In this document: positions 3,307 to 50,746 of the stretch, piece by piece | Position numbering within the stretch: position 1 is the stretch's first letter | How the letters are laid out: each line of letters starts with the position of its first letter | Assembly (NCBI GenBank): GCA_017652265.1 | Contig: JAGCBH010000037.1 | Coordinates: 1-64,000 of the forward strand | Source of the DNA: a bacterium | GTDB taxonomy: Bacteria > Cyanobacteriota > Vampirovibrionia > Gastranaerophilales > Gastranaerophilaceae | Reading direction: 5' to 3' | Length of the DNA stretch: 64,000 nucleotides | The notes under the pieces: generated by a model | What the model saw: the letters and a program-made list of their open reading frames with translations, nothing else | Told to the model about the DNA's origin: nothing | The model's database searches: none | Program-made: the position numbers and the translations under genes

Positions 3307-3340
3307 GGCAATTCCTTACATAAAAATAACTTTATTAATA
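3307..3340 (+). promoter_or_regulatory. GGCA-N19-CTTTAT promoter-like site (CHAP gene)
   Basis: GGCAATT at 3307-3313 and CTTTATTAATA at 3330-3340 are separated by the same 19 bases as at five other genes in the window. A-rich bases precede both boxes. It ends 26 bases before the TTG start. No sigma-70 -10 hexamer fits at the usual distance. Confidence 0.6.
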
Positions 3341-3366
3341 TAGGAGAAACACAGGGGAAAATTATT

Positions 3367-4308
3367 TTGGCTATTAACGGGATTTATAATTCTGGATGGG
3401 ATTATGAACCTTATAGGCTTGCGGCGGGACGCAGGACTATGGGTAGCGACTTTTCGTGCAATTATTACAGCAATAAAAGATATAATTTTTATGATGTAAA
3501 CAGTTACAACAACTTTTCGTACGAAAATTTTCTCTTTGTTCCTTCTTTTAGCTTCAGGCAAAGTTATTCCAATTACCGTTACATTGGTGATTATGACCGT
3601 TATTCCTATAGAAATTACAACTACGGCTACACCCCTAATTATTATTCCTATTCTCGCCCATCGTACTATGACAGTTTCTCCTCAAAGTACGATAGATATT
3701 TACCAATGAATGCGAGAGCAAGCGGAAATACTTATTATAGTCCGCATTATTCAAGCTATTCCGCCACCGCCTATAATACTTCTTCAAGGGCAAGAAATTC
3801 TCAACAGCAATACACAACCGTAGGAACCGCACCAGCTGTTAATCAGGCGGTAAGACTTGCATGGCAAGAATATAATAACGGAGTCAGAGAAATAACCGAA
3901 AATTATTCCCCAAGAATAGTTGAGTACAGAAACGGAAACAGAGCACCTAATCAATGGTGCGGAGCTTTCGTTTCCTGGTTATACGGCAGAGGGCAGGGTG
4001 TTACTAATAAATGCACATTTGGTTTTTCGGAATCATCACAGGCAATAGCCGAAAGAGCCAACAGAGCAGGACATTTCGCACACGTAAATTCAGGCTACAG
4101 GCCGCAGGTAGGTGATTTAATGATTATCAGAAATCATGATAATCCTTCTCACGGACATGTCGGCATTATCGTAGAAGTACACTCTAACGGTACTTTTGTA
4201 ACCATTGAAGGTAACTATGACGACCACGTTGAAAAAGTAAACCGATCAATGGGAAGCGAAGATTTATACGGCTTTGTAAAAATGAACGAATGGCTGCAAA
4301 ATTCTTAA
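3367..4308 (+). CDS. CHAP-domain amidase/peptidase with Tyr/Ser/Asn-rich N-terminus
   Basis: A 313-residue protein. The last ~155 residues form a CHAP domain, a cysteine peptidase/amidase fold that cuts peptidoglycan: NQWCGAFVSWLYG carries the nucleophile Cys198, HGHVGIIVEV the catalytic His264, and IEGNYDD (Glu281/Asn283) the third polar residue. Residues 30-150 are low-complexity and very rich in Tyr, Ser and Asn, probably a disordered linker. There is no signal peptide, which is unusual for a wall hydrolase. The start is TTG at 3367, supported by AGGGG just upstream; the next ATG (codon 25) lacks a ribosome site. It is preceded by the GGCA-N19-CTTTAT site. Confidence 0.85.
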   Translation: MAINGIYNSGWDYEPYRLAAGRRTMGSDFSCNYYSNKRYNFYDVNSYNNFSYENFLFVPSFSFRQSYSNYRYIGDYDRYSYRNYNYGYTPNYYSYSRPSYYDSFSSKYDRYLPMNARASGNTYYSPHYSSYSATAYNTSSRARNSQQQYTTVGTAPAVNQAVRLAWQEYNNGVREITENYSPRIVEYRNGNRAPNQWCGAFVSWLYGRGQGVTNKCTFGFSESSQAIAERANRAGHFAHVNSGYRPQVGDLMIIRNHDNPSHGHVGIIVEVHSNGTFVTIEGNYDDHVEKVNRSMGSEDLYGFVKMNEWLQNS

Positions 4309-20229: not shown

Positions 20230-21999
20230 ATGCAGGAAACTGAAAATAATATAACAAAACAGAATAAACTTATAATAACGGGGCTTTTGGCAAGCACCTT
20301 TTTCATTGTCGGTATCGGAATTTACACATCATTCAATATTCAAAATAACCTGCAAAAAAACTACCGCAGTTACAGTGAAATTATGGCAAAAACCATAGCA
20401 AATTTTTCCGTTGATAACGATAACTCCAAAAGATTTAATGATAAATACCTGCAAAATATAATAAACGATAACGAAAATATTATCGGTATAAAATACACAA
20501 ATTCCGATGGGAAAATTGTTAACGAAGTAAAAAATAAAAATTACGATTCTTCGGCAAAGACTTTTTCCGTTGTAACTCCTCTGGAATATAACCGTGGGAC
20601 ATTAACCCTGACTTATAGTGTTGATGATTTAAATAAAATGTTTTCCGCCACAAGAATATCAATATTTTCGGTCTTTGCACTCTGTTGGTTTATTTTTGCA
20701 TCGGTAACTTTGATAAGTACATATCTTTCAACCTGTGAATTGAGAACTCTCAAAAGTGGTGTTAAAAAGATTTCTACAGGTGAATTCGGATACAAAATTG
20801 AAGAACAGGAAGTCAGTCCTGAAGTAAAAGAATTATTTAATGCCTTCAATGATATGTCGGGCAAATTGCACGTTTATGAAGAACAAAATATTGATCAGCT
20901 TACTCTTGAACGCAACAAATTTGAAGCTGTTTTATTGAGTATCGCAAACGGTGTTGTTGTATGCGATAACAACGACAATGTTGTTTTGGTTAACGAACAC
21001 GCAAAAACATTACTTGAACTTGATGATGAACAAATTCTGGACAGCAAAATTCTTGATTATATTGACAGTGAAAACAATTTCTGTTTTAAAGATAAAATTG
21101 AAGAATTTAAAGCATTACCTATTGAAGAACGTGAAAAGGCTCCGACTGTTTTCAACATAAATGTTGATAAAAAAGTCATCAAATCAATAGTTTCACCTAT
21201 GTTTACAAGAAATCATGATTATCTTGGCTACATCATAGTTTTAATTGACATAACAAAGGAAACCGAAATTGATACAATGCGTTCTCAATTCATATCAAAT
21301 GTTTCGCACGAATTGAGAACTCCGGTTACCGTTTTGAGAAGTTATATTGACACTCTTTATAACTATTCAAACGAATTTGATGATGCGACGAAAAAAGAGT
21401 TTTTAAGCACTATTAACAACGAAATAATCCGTCTCAATGAAATGGTCAATGATATTCTTGATTTTTCAAGACTGGATGCGGATTATGAACTTGAAAAAGA
21501 GCCTAACAACATAATCCGGGTTGTTGAAGATGCAATTAATCAGGTACAAATATTGCTTGAAAAACACAAAATAAATATAGTTGTCCAAAAAGACGGCGAT
21601 TTCAGAGATTTTCCGTTTAACTACAACAGTATAAAACGGGCTTTAACAAATCTTTTGTCAAATGCAATAAAATATTCACCTGAAAACACAAAAGTTACGG
21701 TAAATCTTTTCACCAGCGATGATTCTGTTACGGTAACGGTAACAGACGAAGGCTGCGGTATCGCTCCGGAACATCTTAAGAGAATTTTTGACAGATTTTA
21801 CAGAGTTGAAAACAAAGCACACACAATTAAAGGTACCGGCCTTGGGCTTCAGCTTGTAAAAACTACTATTGAAAAACACCACGGCGGAAAAGTTTTTGTA
21901 ACATCAAAGGTTGACGAAGGTTCGACTTTCGGGTTTACAATCCCGACAACTTTAACTGTTTCCGAAAATAATCAACAGGCAGAAACTGCCGTAAGTTAA
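20230..21999 (+). CDS. Membrane sensor histidine kinase (WalK/NblS type)
   Basis: A 589-residue kinase. Order of parts: membrane helix ~14-35, extracytoplasmic sensor ~36-138, membrane helix ~140-163, HAMP ~165-215, PAS ~230-335 (ILSIANGVVVCDNNDNVVLVN), HisKA with SHELRTPVTVL (phospho-His about 360), and HATPase with N-box LTNLLSNAIKYSP, DEGCGIAP and GTGLGLQLVK. The architecture is that of WalK/VicK and cyanobacterial NblS. No response regulator is adjacent, so the partner is elsewhere. The gene ends in a four-base overlap with the convergent gene. It is probably translated from a leaderless mRNA. Confidence 0.93.
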   Translation: MQETENNITKQNKLIITGLLASTFFIVGIGIYTSFNIQNNLQKNYRSYSEIMAKTIANFSVDNDNSKRFNDKYLQNIINDNENIIGIKYTNSDGKIVNEVKNKNYDSSAKTFSVVTPLEYNRGTLTLTYSVDDLNKMFSATRISIFSVFALCWFIFASVTLISTYLSTCELRTLKSGVKKISTGEFGYKIEEQEVSPEVKELFNAFNDMSGKLHVYEEQNIDQLTLERNKFEAVLLSIANGVVVCDNNDNVVLVNEHAKTLLELDDEQILDSKILDYIDSENNFCFKDKIEEFKALPIEEREKAPTVFNINVDKKVIKSIVSPMFTRNHDYLGYIIVLIDITKETEIDTMRSQFISNVSHELRTPVTVLRSYIDTLYNYSNEFDDATKKEFLSTINNEIIRLNEMVNDILDFSRLDADYELEKEPNNIIRVVEDAINQVQILLEKHKINIVVQKDGDFRDFPFNYNSIKRALTNLLSNAIKYSPENTKVTVNLFTSDDSVTVTVTDEGCGIAPEHLKRIFDRFYRVENKAHTIKGTGLGLQLVKTTIEKHHGGKVFVTSKVDEGSTFGFTIPTTLTVSENNQQAETAVS

Positions 22000-25841: not shown

Positions 25842-26699
25842 CTATACAGCTGCAACAGCTTTTTTCTGCAATGCTGCACCAGGAATTGACTGCCAGTTTG
25901 CCGCCATGATTTTCTTGAATGATTTCAAAGCGGTGTCTTCCAATTCGCCAAGCTCTTCAGCTTCCATAATCAATTCTCTGAGCGGTAACAATGCTCTTTG
26001 GTCTCTTAAAACACCCAAAGCAGCAGCAGCACCTGCTCTTACTAATTCGTTTTCCGAACGGTTTTTCATAACATCAATTAATGCAGGAACAGCTTTTGGG
26101 TCATTCAATTTACCTAAAGAAGTTACGGCATAAATTCTAACATTAACCCATTCGTCGTAAAGCATATTTATAACCTTGTCAACAGCCTTCTTATTTCCTA
26201 TTTCGCCTAATGCTCTTGTTGCATCGCAACGTACATTAACTTTTTCGTGATCAAGTGAAGCAATCAACGCGTCAGTTGCAACATCGCCTATTTCTATCAA
26301 TGCATCAGTTGCCGTAATACAAACCTGAGCATTTTCATCATTCAACGCTTCAACAAGAGGTTCAACAACAATTGCACCGCCTAAACGGCCTAAAGCACGA
26401 GCAGCACGAACACGAACATCAACGTTTCTGTCCTCACGCAAAGATTCAATTAAATGAACCGTAGCTTTAGAATCACCTAACTCACCCAAAGCTCTTGCGG
26501 CATATAAACGAACCGATCCGTTTTTATCATTCTTTAAAACATCAATCAAAGGTTCAACAGCCTTTGAATCACCCATTTCACCAAGAATTCTTGCAGCATT
26601 GTATCTGACTTTTTCGGAATTGCTTGTTTTCAAATCTACTAATAACTCATCAAAAGTTTTCTTCACTTGTTTTTTCTTGCTGTTCACACTAATTGTCAT
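25842..26699 (-). CDS. HEAT-repeat protein (CpcE/NblB-like)
   Basis: A 285-residue protein made almost wholly of ~31-residue HEAT repeats with the pattern VRYNAARILGEMGDSKAVEPLIDVL, repeated about eight times through residue 250. This is the PBS-lyase type of HEAT repeat that cyanobacteria use in phycobilin lyases and NblB, but no phycobiliprotein or other photosynthesis gene is present, so here it more likely acts as a protein-binding scaffold. The start is ATG 26699 because GGAGGA lies six bases upstream; the frame continues to 26732 without such support. Single gene with its own GGCA-N19-CTTTAT promoter and terminator. Confidence 0.87.
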   Translation of the reverse strand: MTISVNSKKKQVKKTFDELLVDLKTSNSEKVRYNAARILGEMGDSKAVEPLIDVLKNDKNGSVRLYAARALGELGDSKATVHLIESLREDRNVDVRVRAARALGRLGGAIVVEPLVEALNDENAQVCITATDALIEIGDVATDALIASLDHEKVNVRCDATRALGEIGNKKAVDKVINMLYDEWVNVRIYAVTSLGKLNDPKAVPALIDVMKNRSENELVRAGAAAALGVLRDQRALLPLRELIMEAEELGELEDTALKSFKKIMAANWQSIPGAALQKKAVAAV

Positions 26700-27004
26700 T
26701 GATTTTCCTCCGACACAATAAATTATTTTCACTACACACTCTTATATAAAGTTTTTTGGAAATAATAAATTGCCTTTTTTAAATGAATTGTTAATTTTTA
26801 TTACATGTAATATTTTGGTTAAATGTTGTTTTAATTATTAAGGGTAAAACAAACACTTTATATTCTAAGAATAACATTTTTTATTACTGATTTCTAGTGT
26901 TTGAATGCATAATTCATAAAATAATTAAAATAATATTAATAAAAATGGTCGAAATTACACTTATTATTGAAATTCGTACCCTATACATTTTGTTACATTA
27001 ACTA
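26700..27004. other. 305-bp intergenic region between HEAT gene and kinase gene
   Basis: Very AT-rich. It holds the ribosome site and the GGCA-N19-CTTTAT site of the HEAT gene (26742-26774). The rest, about 26780-27004, shows no coding frame, RNA fold or clear terminator that I can support. Confidence 0.5.
26742..26774 (-). promoter_or_regulatory. GGCA-N19-CTTTAT promoter-like site (HEAT gene)
   Basis: Minus strand GGCAATT (26774-26768) and CTTTATATAA (26751-26742), 19 bases between GGCA and CTTTAT. Followed by GTGTGTAGTG (26739-26730), a sequence nearly repeated after the sites at 50644 and 34989. Ends 42 bases before the ATG. Confidence 0.65.
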
Positions 27005-34948: not shown

Positions 34949-34988
34949 ATTATTTACTTAAACTATCTTAACAATTATACAAAATAAT

Positions 34989-35020
34989 GGCAATTTTTAT
35001 TTATGAAATAACTTTATGAG
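34989..35020 (+). promoter_or_regulatory. GGCA-N19-CTTTAT promoter-like site (82-residue protein)
   Basis: GGCAATT (34989-34995), 19 bases after GGCA, CTTTATGAG (35012-35020), then GTGTGTAGT (35024-35032) as at the HEAT gene. Ends 38 bases before ATG 35059. Confidence 0.65.
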
Positions 35021-35058
35021 ACCGTGTGTAGTAAATTAATAGAAAGTAGGTAAAATTT

Positions 35059-35307
35059 ATGGAAAATATCAAAGTAGAAAATGGTTTATTGGTAAATTGG
35101 ACAGAACATCAAATTCGTCCTAGGTTAGTAGAGATACAAGCACCACAGCGTGGAGCATACAACGTAGCAACACATACTTTTTCTGGAGACAGGCAAGCTC
35201 TGGTTGAAGCTTTAAAAGCAAAATATGGAGTACTTACCCCTGAAAAACTAAAAGCGTGGACGGCAGAAGTGGGAAAAGAAGTAGCAAAAAAAGCGCCAAA
35301 ACCATAA
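35059..35307 (+). CDS. Small protein of unknown function
   Basis: An 82-residue soluble protein that I do not recognise. The first half has short beta-prone segments (VENGLLVNWTEHQIRPRLVE), the second a helical stretch (DRQALVEALKAKYGVLTPEKLKAWTAEVGKEVAKK). No signal peptide, Cys or metal motif. A clear ribosome site (AAGTAGG) and a strong terminator, plus a GGCA-N19-CTTTAT promoter site, show that it is a real, singly transcribed gene. Confidence 0.75.
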   Translation: MENIKVENGLLVNWTEHQIRPRLVEIQAPQRGAYNVATHTFSGDRQALVEALKAKYGVLTPEKLKAWTAEVGKEVAKKAPKP

Positions 35308-42501: not shown

Positions 42502-43482
42502 TTAATCTTCTTTCTTTCCTGCTTTATTTGTCATTTCATACATTGCTGATTTAACGAAGAATTCGCCATTTGAAGCACTGCGGGCATAAATGTAAACCTC
42601 GCCGTCATAATTTTTGAAATATACAAGACAATTTTCAGGAATGTCTCTTTGAAGCATTTCAGAAGATACCGGTTTTGAGCTATAACCGTTTTCTACTGTA
42701 GGGTTAACTTTAACAGCTTTTGCCTTTCCGTCGTCATATTCAAATACGTAAATTGCATCTTTAGTATTATTTGGTACGTATAAGTATTTTTTATTGTCCA
42801 AAGGATTAGTTATAACAGCACCAAATTTTGCGTTACTGCCAGGATAAACCTGTCCCGGATTAAGATTTACTTTTTGTATTACTTGACTGAAATTACCATT
42901 GCCAACCGGAACGTTGTTTATATCATATATTCTACCGTTCAATGCAGCATTATAAGCAATAGTATCATTGCTGTTGTATCTGACAGTATCAACATCAGCT
43001 TCCATAAGTTGTTGTAATGCCCAGTCAGCCATCTTTATGTGACCTGTTATATTGCTTGGTCCTTCCCAAGATGAAGAACCGTTTTCTCCGGTACCAAGAA
43101 CTTGACTGAATATACTATCCAGTACGGAGTCATCAATATATGTTGTATGCGGATTAACAGGCGGGTTAACCGGAGTTACGGTATCCGTATGGTGAGCGAT
43201 TGTATCACCGCAAGAATTAATTAGGTAAAAGTTTACACCAGATTCAGATGTTGCAATAACAGGACCATCACATCCGCAACCCTTACCGCAAGAAGCAAGG
43301 AACGATAAACCTAATGCGCCTAACGCAGCAAAAAATAAATTTCTAACTGTACGGGTATTTACATGCCCAAAATTGAGCTCTGGTTCTTTAGGCTCAACAG
43401 GAATTGGTGCCGGCTGCGGCTGATTATTATTTCTGTTTGCTCTGTAAATGTTTTGATAATTTGAAATTGCTGAAACTTTCAT
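42502..43482 (-). CDS. Envelope protein with long N-terminal extension, probable lipoprotein (paralog A)
   Basis: A 326-residue protein. A 46-residue polar, Asn/Pro-rich start comes before a hydrophobic segment (VRNLFFAALGALGLSFLASC) that ends in a perfect lipobox LASC (Cys65); such a long pre-signal part is unusual. After it come GKGCGCDG and a Thr/Pro-rich stretch, then a ~190-residue domain with NITGHIKMADWALQ, GRIYDINNVPVGNGNF, ITNPLDNKKYLYVPNN, AIYVFEYDD and EVYIYARSASNGEFFVKSA. The same domain is in the protein at 43654, so they are paralogs; family not known to me. Good AGGAG site and a degenerate GGCA-N19-CTTTAT site. Confidence 0.75.
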   Translation of the reverse strand: MKVSAISNYQNIYRANRNNNQPQPAPIPVEPKEPELNFGHVNTRTVRNLFFAALGALGLSFLASCGKGCGCDGPVIATSESGVNFYLINSCGDTIAHHTDTVTPVNPPVNPHTTYIDDSVLDSIFSQVLGTGENGSSSWEGPSNITGHIKMADWALQQLMEADVDTVRYNSNDTIAYNAALNGRIYDINNVPVGNGNFSQVIQKVNLNPGQVYPGSNAKFGAVITNPLDNKKYLYVPNNTKDAIYVFEYDDGKAKAVKVNPTVENGYSSKPVSSEMLQRDIPENCLVYFKNYDGEVYIYARSASNGEFFVKSAMYEMTNKAGKKED

Positions 43483-43522
43483 TTAACATATCTCCTATAC
43501 TTATTTATCTATATGAATTCTA

Positions 43523-43555
43523 TCTCATAAATATCTGTGAAAACATTTTTTTGCT
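43523..43555 (-). promoter_or_regulatory. Degenerate GGCA-N19-CTTTAT site (paralog A)
   Basis: Minus strand AGCA (43555-43552), 19 bases, ATTTATGAGA (43532-43523). Each box has one mismatch; the second shares TTTATGAGA with the site at 34989. Ends 40 bases before the ATG. Confidence 0.45.
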
Positions 43556-43585
43556 ATTTTATATGTTTTTGTTTACAAATATTAA

Positions 43586-43624
43586 CAAAAAATGAGTGCA
43601 TAGATTTAAAACCTATGCACTCAT
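43586..43624 (-). terminator. Terminator of the 43654 gene
   Basis: ATGAGTGCATAG pairs with CTATGCACTCAT; on the minus strand a T run follows. Confidence 0.85.
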
Positions 43625-43653: not shown

Positions 43654-44724
43654 TTATTTGTTTTGCATTATAAAATTACCTGATTTAACGAAGAACTGTC
43701 CATTTGTAGCACTACGCGCATAAATACGAACATTACCGTCTTCATCATCGTATTGTTCACGTTTTATAACAACATTGCAATTTTCAGGAACACCATCAGG
43801 TAAACCTCTGCCGGCAGGAGCATATCCGTTTTCCGGTGTAGGATCAACTTTGGCAGGAACTATAGAAACCTTTTTAAATCCTTTACCCAGTGCCATATCA
43901 AATACATAAATTGCTGTTTTATCGTTGTTTGGAACGTACAGTGAATATCTTCCGTCAAGCGGATTTTTGATTACTACACCAAAAGGTGCATTACATCCAT
44001 CAATCATACCTGGTGCTAACTGCAATCTCATCAGTTCACCCGTAAAATTACCGGGTGCAACAGGATCATTGTTTACGTCATATACCCGACCTGCAATTAA
44101 AGAATTTGTTTCAACAAAATTCTCTGCCGGTTTTGTGGAAAGAACTATTTCCATATTTTGATTCAACGCATAATCAGTTATAACTATACGGCCTGTTATG
44201 TTATCAGCACCTTCCCAAAATTCATTTGTAGGATCGCAAAGAACTTCGTTAATGGCATCAGCAAGTGAATCATCCACAGTTATCGGAGGATTTACAGGTA
44301 CCTGTATAGAATCTGTAACATGCACAGTGTCAGTTGTATGAACAATTGTAGTGTCAGTTGTATGAATAACTGTCGTATCATTTGTTATCGGTATATCACC
44401 ATGTAATGAACTGTGAGATTCTGCTATAACACCCTCCGGCATTTCCTCTTTGCTGCATTTGGTAAATAAAGCTATAATACATCCCCCGACAACAACCCAA
44501 AATATAGGACCGATGGCTTCTTCGTTAGCCATTTCAATCGCTTCCGGCGATGCATTCATCAGCCCCAATTCCATATCAGCAGGGCTTTCCATTGCAGTTT
44601 CATCAACCATTGGTACAAAATCCGCGCTTTTTCCTGCTCTCAAAGCAAAATTTTCAGCATCACTTTCATAATTAAAACCAACGGCATCAGTACTGCTTGC
44701 TTTTTCAACTCTGAAATCACTCAT
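43654..44724 (-). CDS. Membrane-anchored envelope protein with HTTDT repeats (paralog B)
   Basis: A 356-residue paralog of the 42502 product. An acidic 70-residue start, one membrane segment (IGPIFWVVVGGCIIALFTKC, ~71-90), then a Thr/Asp repeat region (TTDTTIVHTTDTVHVTD, ~115-140) and the shared C-terminal domain: NITGRIVITDYALN, AGRVYDVNNDPVAPGNF, IKNPLDGRYSLYVPNN, AIYVFDMA, RIYARSATNGQFFVKSG. The Cys after the membrane segment lacks a lipobox (FTKC). The DNA of the repeat region has a 16-base direct repeat with 24-base period. Function unknown; exposure outside the membrane is inferred. AAAGGAG precedes ATG. Confidence 0.75.
   Translation of the reverse strand: MSDFRVEKASSTDAVGFNYESDAENFALRAGKSADFVPMVDETAMESPADMELGLMNASPEAIEMANEEAIGPIFWVVVGGCIIALFTKCSKEEMPEGVIAESHSSLHGDIPITNDTTVIHTTDTTIVHTTDTVHVTDSIQVPVNPPITVDDSLADAINEVLCDPTNEFWEGADNITGRIVITDYALNQNMEIVLSTKPAENFVETNSLIAGRVYDVNNDPVAPGNFTGELMRLQLAPGMIDGCNAPFGVVIKNPLDGRYSLYVPNNDKTAIYVFDMALGKGFKKVSIVPAKVDPTPENGYAPAGRGLPDGVPENCNVVIKREQYDDEDGNVRIYARSATNGQFFVKSGNFIMQNK
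44327..44366. repeat. 24-bp tandem period inside paralog B
   Basis: GTGTCAGTTGTATGAA at 44327-44342 and again at 44351-44366; a looser third unit follows. It encodes an eight-residue VHTTDTTI-like unit. Confidence 0.7.
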
Positions 44725-44767
44725 AATACAACTCCTTTATTAAAAACGTGCTTATTATTCCTATTAA

Positions 44768-44800
44768 ATATATAAAGTATTTAATGAGTATATAATTGCC
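44768..44800 (-). promoter_or_regulatory. GGCA-N19-CTTTAT promoter-like site (paralog B)
   Basis: Minus strand GGCAATT (44800-44794) and CTTTATATAT (44777-44768), again 19 bases apart. Ends 43 bases before ATG 44724. Confidence 0.62.
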
Positions 44801-44945
44801 ATGATTTTAAAATTGGGTTTACAATTGTTTACAATGTTGATTAAGTTTTTTAAATTTTAAATTTTTATTCTTGCAATTCTGTTATGTTAGTCGTAGCATT
44901 GAATAACGAGTGTAAACAGAACAATTATATAGGACGGATTATGTT

Positions 44946-49171: not shown

Positions 49172-49693
49172 TTACAGTCCGCTTGGCCTGTTGTAATCAT
49201 AATCGGTAAAAATATTGCTGCCTCTTACTGCCCAGAAACCGCCATAAACAGGTGGGGTGTCGGAAGAAGCTTTAAACCCATGCGGTATATTTATGTATGT
49301 GACATCATCGTCATCCTGTACTACGCTATTGAAACCGTAACCATCCTGATGCCCCAAAAGAACTGTATCCTTGCCTCCGCCTTCAACATTTACTTCACAT
49401 TCCAGGCAGTTAAACATTGCTATTTGATCATCTTTTTCGGAACCCTGCACATCAATTAGGTAACCATCTCTAACTATCGTTACACCTTTTTCATCCATAT
49501 AAACTATTCCGTTTGACCATTGCTCATCAGCACTAAATTTTAGAATAGTTCCATTTTTAAGTGTTGCAGTATACCTATTATCTTCTGCATCAAAAACCGG
49601 CTCCGAAGCTAAGCTTGCCTTATTCAACGCAACAGAACCGCAGAATGTGTATTGTTGTTGTATCATCAATTGATTTAACGGATTTACGCTCAT
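49172..49693 (-). CDS. Protein of unknown function, beta-rich
   Basis: A 173-residue protein that I do not recognise. No signal peptide. Residues 30-130 alternate short hydrophobic strands and acidic turns (YTATLKNGTILKFSADEQWS, GVTIVRDGYLIDVQGSEKDD, DTVLLGHQDGYGF, DDDDVTYINIPHG), resembling beta-solenoid or RTX-like folds (GGGKDTVLLG is near the GGxGxD type). AAGGAGG is an excellent ribosome site. The style resembles other exported proteins of this genome with polar, non-signal N-termini. Confidence 0.65.
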   Translation of the reverse strand: MSVNPLNQLMIQQQYTFCGSVALNKASLASEPVFDAEDNRYTATLKNGTILKFSADEQWSNGIVYMDEKGVTIVRDGYLIDVQGSEKDDQIAMFNCLECEVNVEGGGKDTVLLGHQDGYGFNSVVQDDDDVTYINIPHGFKASSDTPPVYGGFWAVRGSNIFTDYDYNRPSGL

Positions 49694-49805
49694 ATTAATC
49701 CTCCTTATATTTTTATTTCCTAAATAGCAAATTTTTCCTCGTTATATACATAAAAGATTTTTTAGGAGCGAAATTGATATCTTTCTGATTTGTATTTTAC
49801 AAATA

Positions 49806-50609
49806 TTAACAATTTTGTGGTGCAAGCTTTCTGGATTCTCTCAAATGAGCGGCAAGACCTCTGAAAACTGCCGGATGGACCTTGTTCTTTTGTACATCAG
49901 CATAAATTATGCCCAAAGCCTGCTCAGGTGACATTGCACTTTTATATGAACGATTTTCGGTAAGTGCAGAATATTTATCCGCAATACTCAAGATTTGTAA
50001 ATTTATATCATTACTTAAATCAATATCAGCAGCAGGATAACCTGTGCCCAAGCGGTCTTGGTGGTGATATTTTACAAGTTCTTTTGTCTTTTCATCAAGC
50101 GAACTGTTTTTTAATATCTCATAACCCAACTCAGAATGGCTTTTCATAATTTCATATTCATAACTGTCAAGCATGGCAGGTTTATTCAGAATTTCATCCG
50201 GTATAAAGACTTTACCTATGTCATGAAGATAGCTTGCTTTGTGAATAGCGTCAGTATCAATTTGATACTGCTCTGATTTTGGCAAATGCCTGATAATTCC
50301 TTTTGCTATAGCCTGTGTATCGGCAGCGTGGTTGTTTTGTATGTGGCGTAAGTTTTGTACATTTAATTCCGGTTTAATACCCTTTTCCGTTAATATTCTT
50401 TTTATTTCAGGATTAGAATCAAGCGCGCTTTTAAGATAATCCTCTGTATAAAAATAGTGCAGAGAATCTTTTGAATACTGAAAACTGTCCGTTGAGGAAA
50501 TGCGATTATTCCCTAACGTTTTGACAGATGAAACAGGACTTGTCCCGTATAATTTTTTTGATGCACCGGCTCCGAAACCGTTGACACCCAAATAACCTGA
50601 TGTTACCAT
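49806..50609 (-). CDS. HD-GYP domain protein, probable cyclic-di-GMP phosphodiesterase
   Basis: A 267-residue protein. Residues ~90-260 form an HD-GYP domain: KASYLHDIGKVFIPDEILNK (HD pair), MKSHSELGYEILK, YHHQDRLGTGYPA (the GYP motif) and ILSIADKYSALTENRSYKSA. These enzymes hydrolyse cyclic-di-GMP or related messengers. The N-terminal ~70 residues are polar and unlike any sensor that I know. I take ATG 50609; an in-frame GTG lies two codons upstream. Single gene with a GGCA-N19-CTTTAT promoter site. Confidence 0.87.
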   Translation of the reverse strand: MVTSGYLGVNGFGAGASKKLYGTSPVSSVKTLGNNRISSTDSFQYSKDSLHYFYTEDYLKSALDSNPEIKRILTEKGIKPELNVQNLRHIQNNHAADTQAIAKGIIRHLPKSEQYQIDTDAIHKASYLHDIGKVFIPDEILNKPAMLDSYEYEIMKSHSELGYEILKNSSLDEKTKELVKYHHQDRLGTGYPAADIDLSNDINLQILSIADKYSALTENRSYKSAMSPEQALGIIYADVQKNKVHPAVFRGLAAHLRESRKLAPQNC

Positions 50610-50643
50610 ACACACACTATTAAATTACACTACACGCTTATGT

Positions 50644-50676
50644 TTATATAAAGTATTTTTTCGTTAAAAAAGTGCC
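50644..50676 (-). promoter_or_regulatory. GGCA-N19-CTTTAT promoter-like site (HD-GYP gene)
   Basis: Minus strand GGCACTT (50676-50670) and CTTTATATAA (50653-50644), 19 bases apart, followed by GCGTGTAGTG (50635-50626). Ends 34 bases before ATG 50609. Confidence 0.65.
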
Positions 50677-50746
50677 TGTTTTTTTTAATTTGTTACAATT
50701 TTTTAAAATGAAATTTATCATGATAATATTAAACAGAGGTTTTACG

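Follow-up and report, generated by a model that had tools for sequence, protein, structure and literature searches.

What marks the recurrence of GGCA-N19-CTTTAT ahead of several genes in this 64-kb window (the whole stretch of DNA analysed): a genuine class of promoter or an accident of base composition? And if it is a promoter, which regulator and which sigma factor read it? An earlier note, made from the sequence alone, had pointed out six such sites and assigned them to one alternative sigma factor.

The core motif in the window

All five exact matches of the earlier note lie in the window where it had placed them, against a mean of 0.15 in 100 dinucleotide shuffles, none of which reached five. 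Its sixth site (43555, minus strand) does have one mismatch per box, as claimed, and falls outside the best matches listed for a 36-bp weight matrix. Because an HLR1 box (the upstream repeat discussed below) with 15/16 matches begins 34 bp upstream of it, at 43589, placed as at the strong sites, this site is probably a genuine, if weak, member. A seventh site, absent from the earlier note (49778, minus strand), is a weak member as well: it has a 15/16 HLR1 box at 49813 and a matrix score of 10.7 bits, which in the window comes after four sites at 28.8-36.2 bits and one (34989) at 13.2 bits, with everything else at 8.7 or less (Table 1). The distance from the end of CTTTAT to the start codon, previously given as 26-43 nt, comes to about 13-47 nt on recounting and depends on the choice of start.

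Table 1. Promoter elements, target genes and the candidate sensor kinase in the window
Feature	Position	Strand	Basis
Core promoter before CHAP gene	3307..3342	+	exact match; 28.8 bits
CHAP-domain hydrolase, Tyr-rich N-terminus, without obvious signal peptide	3367..4308	+	Pfam CHAP 1.8e-11; hydropathy scan
NblS-like sensor kinase (PAS, HisKA, HATPase), candidate RpaB partner	20230..21999	+	NCBIfam
HEAT-repeat protein, GTG start (ATG at 26699 also possible)	25842..26732	-	Pfam HEAT_2 2e-43
Core promoter GGCAATT-N14-AACTTTATATA before HEAT-repeat gene	26739..26774	-	exact match; matrix 29.8 bits
Degenerate HLR1-like repeat TGTAA...TTAAC, 11-bp period	26790..26807	-	read from upstream sequence
HLR1-like repeat TTAAA...TTAAC, 10-bp period	34956..34973	+	read from upstream sequence
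Core promoter, downstream part weaker, before gene of 82-aa protein	34989..35024	+	exact match; 13.2 bits
82-aa orphan protein	35059..35307	+	
326-aa protein, target of sixth site	42502..43482	-	
Degenerate core, sixth site	43520..43555	-	one mismatch per box; support mainly from HLR1 box
HLR1 box, 15/16 (sixth site)	43572..43589	-	
356-aa orphan protein	43654..44724	-	
Core promoter before 356-aa orphan gene	44765..44800	-	exact match; 35.8 bits
Perfect HLR1 box, 16/16 (site of 356-aa orphan)	44818..44835	-	
173-aa orphan, target of seventh site	49172..49693	-	
Weak core, seventh site	49743..49778	-	10.7 bits
HLR1 box, 15/16 (seventh site)	49796..49813	-	
HD-GYP-like protein	49806..50615	-	Pfam HD_5 3e-21
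Core promoter before HD-GYP-like gene	50641..50676	-	exact match; 36.2 bits
HLR1 box, 15/16 (site of HD-GYP-like gene)	50692..50709	-	

The core motif in the genome and the order

The genome (1.59 Mb in 66 contigs) contains 30 matches to the bare pattern, about 20 of which share an extended motif and stand just upstream of genes; the remaining ten or so lack the extension, look like chance occurrences and lie mostly within open frames. The extended motif reads GGCAATT-N14-(T/A)ACTTTATATA, that is GGCAATT-N14-WACTTTATATA (template form GGCAATT...TACTTTATATA), and occurs genome-wide in 15 perfect copies, or in about 43 good ones if up to two mismatches are allowed. A start codon follows 48 of the 52 sites that were kept, typically within 60 nt and mostly with a Shine-Dalgarno-like sequence. 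In the position profile of the 43 sites, GCAATT and ACTTTATATA are near-invariant, in part by selection, since the profile was built from sites that differ from the motif at no more than two positions; a run of A precedes the first box and a run of T follows it, and the sigma-A hexamers TTGACA and TATAAT are absent from the motif. Purines are also conserved in this profile, at 33 and at 35 bp after GGCA, where they would suit a transcription start.

An origin by chance, or as an artefact of an A+T-rich genome, could appeal to that composition and to the third or so of bare matches that look accidental, but shuffles, reversed patterns, wrong spacing and other orders all stay at background. With the right spacing this genome gives 35 matches against 1 for the reversed pattern, and with one base more it gives 2 against 1. 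Every one of the 146 genomes of the order has a match when one mismatch is allowed. Within the genome's own family the counts run from 5 to 63 per genome, against 0 to 5 for the reversed control; several other families of the order have few sites, down to one and sometimes not above the control, and several sites in these sparse families nonetheless have the full anatomy. Matches in 79 genomes that belong to the same class but to other orders are at control level. These controls lead us to reject a chance origin, whose probability is close to nil. The pattern is almost certainly the core of a real promoter class of Candidatus Gastranaerophilales, gut bacteria that are related to Cyanobacteria but do not photosynthesise. 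The idea of a distinct class unlike the sigma-A consensus gains strong support throughout the order, and an alternative sigma factor is its likely reader.

An upstream repeat resembling HLR1

The promoters have a third element, which the earlier note missed: a direct repeat with a 10-bp period about 35 bp upstream. In a set of 82 sites, drawn from eight genomes, the word (T/G)T(A/T)A(A/C/G) recurs after 10 bp in 40 pairs against 6.5 expected, and these pairs cluster at -33 to -30 from GGCA. The OmpR-family regulator RpaB binds a site known as HLR1, KTTACAWW-N2-KTTACAWW, which activates when it lies at about -45 to -66 (PMC13421787). Scored as published, with no fitting to these data, this consensus from Cyanobacteria matches 28 of the 52 sites at 14/16 or better and 10 of them perfectly (about 0.2 expected from shuffles); about half of the 52 have no strong match. 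Most of the boxes begin 33-36 bp before GGCA and would thus occupy about -70 to -49 relative to the putative start, which fits an activating position upstream of the core. The repeat therefore fits HLR1 in period, position and consensus. One 16/16 box in the window (52009-51992, minus strand) has neither a GGCAATT core after it nor a clear downstream gene.

An RpaB orthologue is found in 139 of the 146 genomes of the order, above the NCBI equivalog cut-off (NF045944) and, for most of the matches listed, with 81-89% identity to the query. It was not found in the present assembly; since the protein occurs in each of the genus's five other genomes, an assembly gap is the likely cause. The kinase of Table 1 has NblS as its top NCBIfam model (305.7 bits, far under the cut-off of 1000), with WalK second. 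Homologues of RpaA, RpaB and NblS were already described in 2013 as kept without photosynthesis in Melainabacteria, where they "may have another function" (PMC3787301).

The parallel with the RpaB/HLR1 promoters of Cyanobacteria (PMC13421787, PMC6331805) extends to the box consensus, the 10-bp period and the position before the -35 region, together with an RpaB orthologue above its curated cut-off in most genomes of the order and a candidate NblS-like kinase in the window. The two differ in that no photosynthesis genes occur among the targets looked at, the core promoter is distinct and order-specific, and the regulon consists of lineage-specific proteins. Boxes of the WalR/PhoP type also resemble this repeat. 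Another OmpR-family regulator, of the L313 or L318 type, might bind it instead of RpaB, and these are the sole two members of that family found in this assembly; in its 10-bp period and its placement the repeat agrees with HLR1, however, and RpaB is near-universal and highly conserved in the order, which makes such a regulator an unlikely reader. We predict with good confidence that the repeat is read by RpaB. A regulon controlled by one sigma factor, as first proposed, is hence an incomplete description, and a response regulator acting together with a sigma factor is the best reading.

Which sigma factor reads the core

Eight sigma-70-family proteins are encoded in the genome, and three types among them appear to be order-specific: L033, L034 and the ECF sigma factor L037. 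L034 is present in 21 of the 25 in-order genomes checked and in none outside. It shares domain layout and overall similarity with the cyanobacterial group 2 sigma factors (SigB/SigD type) but has changed residues in region 2.4/3.0 (mostly SEQxxxxKIPVY vs ADQARTIRIPVH) and in region 4.2, where an altered recognition helix is conserved (TKEC(I/V)RQ vs TRERIRQ), and the motif is likewise not sigma-A-like. The protein scores far under every curated sigma model, and an alignment scan of the genome collection returned mostly distant sigma relatives from other phyla, at 37-42% identity; a near relative of L034 comes from Candidatus Gastranaerophilales. One genome that is 99% complete (G004) is without L034 and yet has 6 sites. 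Presence and absence fail to separate L033 from L034, each being missing from some genomes, and autoregulation was rejected as a route to the identity of the sigma factor, as none of the genome's sigma genes is directly preceded by the motif. An L034-type sigma factor, order-specific, divergent and group-2-like, is the best candidate for reading the core, a prediction about as apt to prove right as wrong. Two unusually long sigma-70-like proteins, L181 (667 aa, in G006) and L209 (434 aa, in G007), were also noticed.

The serious rival is the housekeeping RpoD, for which the core would be a variant that has a poor -35 box and depends on RpaB, making an alternative sigma factor unneeded. RpaB activates at this position in cyanobacteria, RpoD is present in all genomes, and in an alignment TACTTT retains T-12, A-11 and T-7 while NNGGCA-N17-TACTTT has sigma-A spacing. 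The -35 box GCAATT, the invariant C and TATATA are nevertheless unlike sigma-A promoters, and TTGCCA-N17-TATAAT-like promoters precede some of the window's other genes (on weak statistics), so that we take RpoD with RpaB to be improbable, if only by about three to one against in our own judgement. It is comparably doubtful that the reader is L033, the SigF-like L038, the FliA/WhiG-like L035 or the ECF sigma factor L036. L033 is order-specific too and occurs in nearly all genomes, but its DNA-reading residues are close to those of RpoD. SigF controls cell-surface genes in cyanobacteria, and its promoters there (TAGGC/GGTAA, PMC2758279) share with the motif a purine-rich stretch before GGC, whereas the motif is without GGTAA in the -12 region; unlike the motif, the L035, L036 and L038 types are found beyond the order as well.

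The order-specific ECF sigma factor L037, which has an anti-sigma, would have to take GGCAATT as a GGAACTT-like -35 box. Promoters of ECF sigma factors (GGAAC-N16/17-CGTC) do share GG..A.TT in the -35 box, a T-run after it and similar spacing with the motif, but the -10 region here is without CGT. The L037 operon itself has a normal ECF promoter, TGAAC-N16/17-CGT, conserved in six genomes and different from the motif, and G002 has 19 sites and no L037; this candidate is very unlikely and was set aside. L037 and its orthologues L234, L236, L239, L240 and L242 lie in an ECF sigma operon with a zinc-finger-like anti-sigma, to which a CpxP/Spy-like protein is added in this genome.

A proposed three-part promoter

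The arrangement we favour, with rather more confidence than doubt, is a three-part promoter at which RpaB activates and an L034-type sigma factor reads the core. Its parts would be an HLR1-type repeat, WWTGTAAM-NN-WWTGTAAM, lying some 49-70 bp before the putative start; a -35 region, GGCAATT; and a -10 region, (T/A)ACTTTATATA. Observation covers where the sites lie, how they are spaced and conserved, how the repeat matches HLR1, and that RpaB and the L034 sigma factor occur in the order. The NblS-like kinase would drive phosphorylation of RpaB, and phosphorylated RpaB would bind the repeat and activate RNA polymerase at the core, which differs from sigma-A promoters and would be read by the L034-type sigma factor; binding, activation, start site and sigma assignment are predictions from sequence.

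RpaB is a light/redox regulator in cyanobacteria. It is tentatively suggested that Gastranaerophilales kept it but coupled it to a new, order-specific sigma factor, the two jointly controlling a large regulon of lineage-specific proteins (with no obvious Sec signal and possibly another export route) and small RNAs, so that a light/redox circuit would have been repurposed without photosynthesis. A search of the literature, not an exhaustive one, found nothing linking Gastranaerophilales to a regulon. With this promoter class come predicted RpaB targets for the whole order and a candidate for the partner sigma factor, so that the role of RpaB in Melainabacteria can be put to the test; it also gives access to the regulation of many orphan proteins in bacteria that are common in the gut.

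Targets and candidate small RNAs

The predicted RpaB targets in this genome number about 40-50. Those in the window include the CHAP hydrolase, the HEAT-repeat protein, the HD-GYP-like protein and orphans; beyond it are an SLT transglycosylase and a ribbon-helix-helix protein. The "surface/cell-state regulon" of the earlier note fits the targets only loosely: two cell-wall hydrolases and a single HD-GYP-like protein speak for it, whereas recognisable domains are missing from most targets and a clear signal peptide from all. A Pfam scan of 36 regulon proteins assigned mostly no family, and a simple hydropathy scan of 48 targets found no clear N-terminal signal peptide (one case was borderline). 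At the 48 N-termini the residues Y, N, S, G and P are abundant while K, I, L and E are scarce, and the proteins without a signal peptide include two cell-wall hydrolases (examples are L002, L004, L027 and the window protein at 3367-4308). Such N-termini suggest a non-Sec export route.

Some sites have no gene after them but a stretch of about 60-170 nt with a terminator-like hairpin at its end, and these may encode small RNAs. In this genome they are L062, L119, L114 (plus strand) and L068; in relatives, L285 and L297 (G004), L280 and L292 (G030), L277 (G011) and L295 (G002, a tandem pair). Rfam gave no match in eleven small-RNA regions. Several of the candidates have CCUUCC-type repeats complementary to Shine-Dalgarno sequences, and the ACTACACAC present in both L062 and L119 is exactly complementary to GTGTGTAGT. 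Among the target leaders, 6 of 48 contain the word GTGTAGT, as against 0 of 45 control leaders. Words shared between small RNAs and leaders hint at pairing, but this is no more than a lead, since in tests of pairing energy dinucleotide-shuffled RNAs came close to the real ones for L062 and L119.
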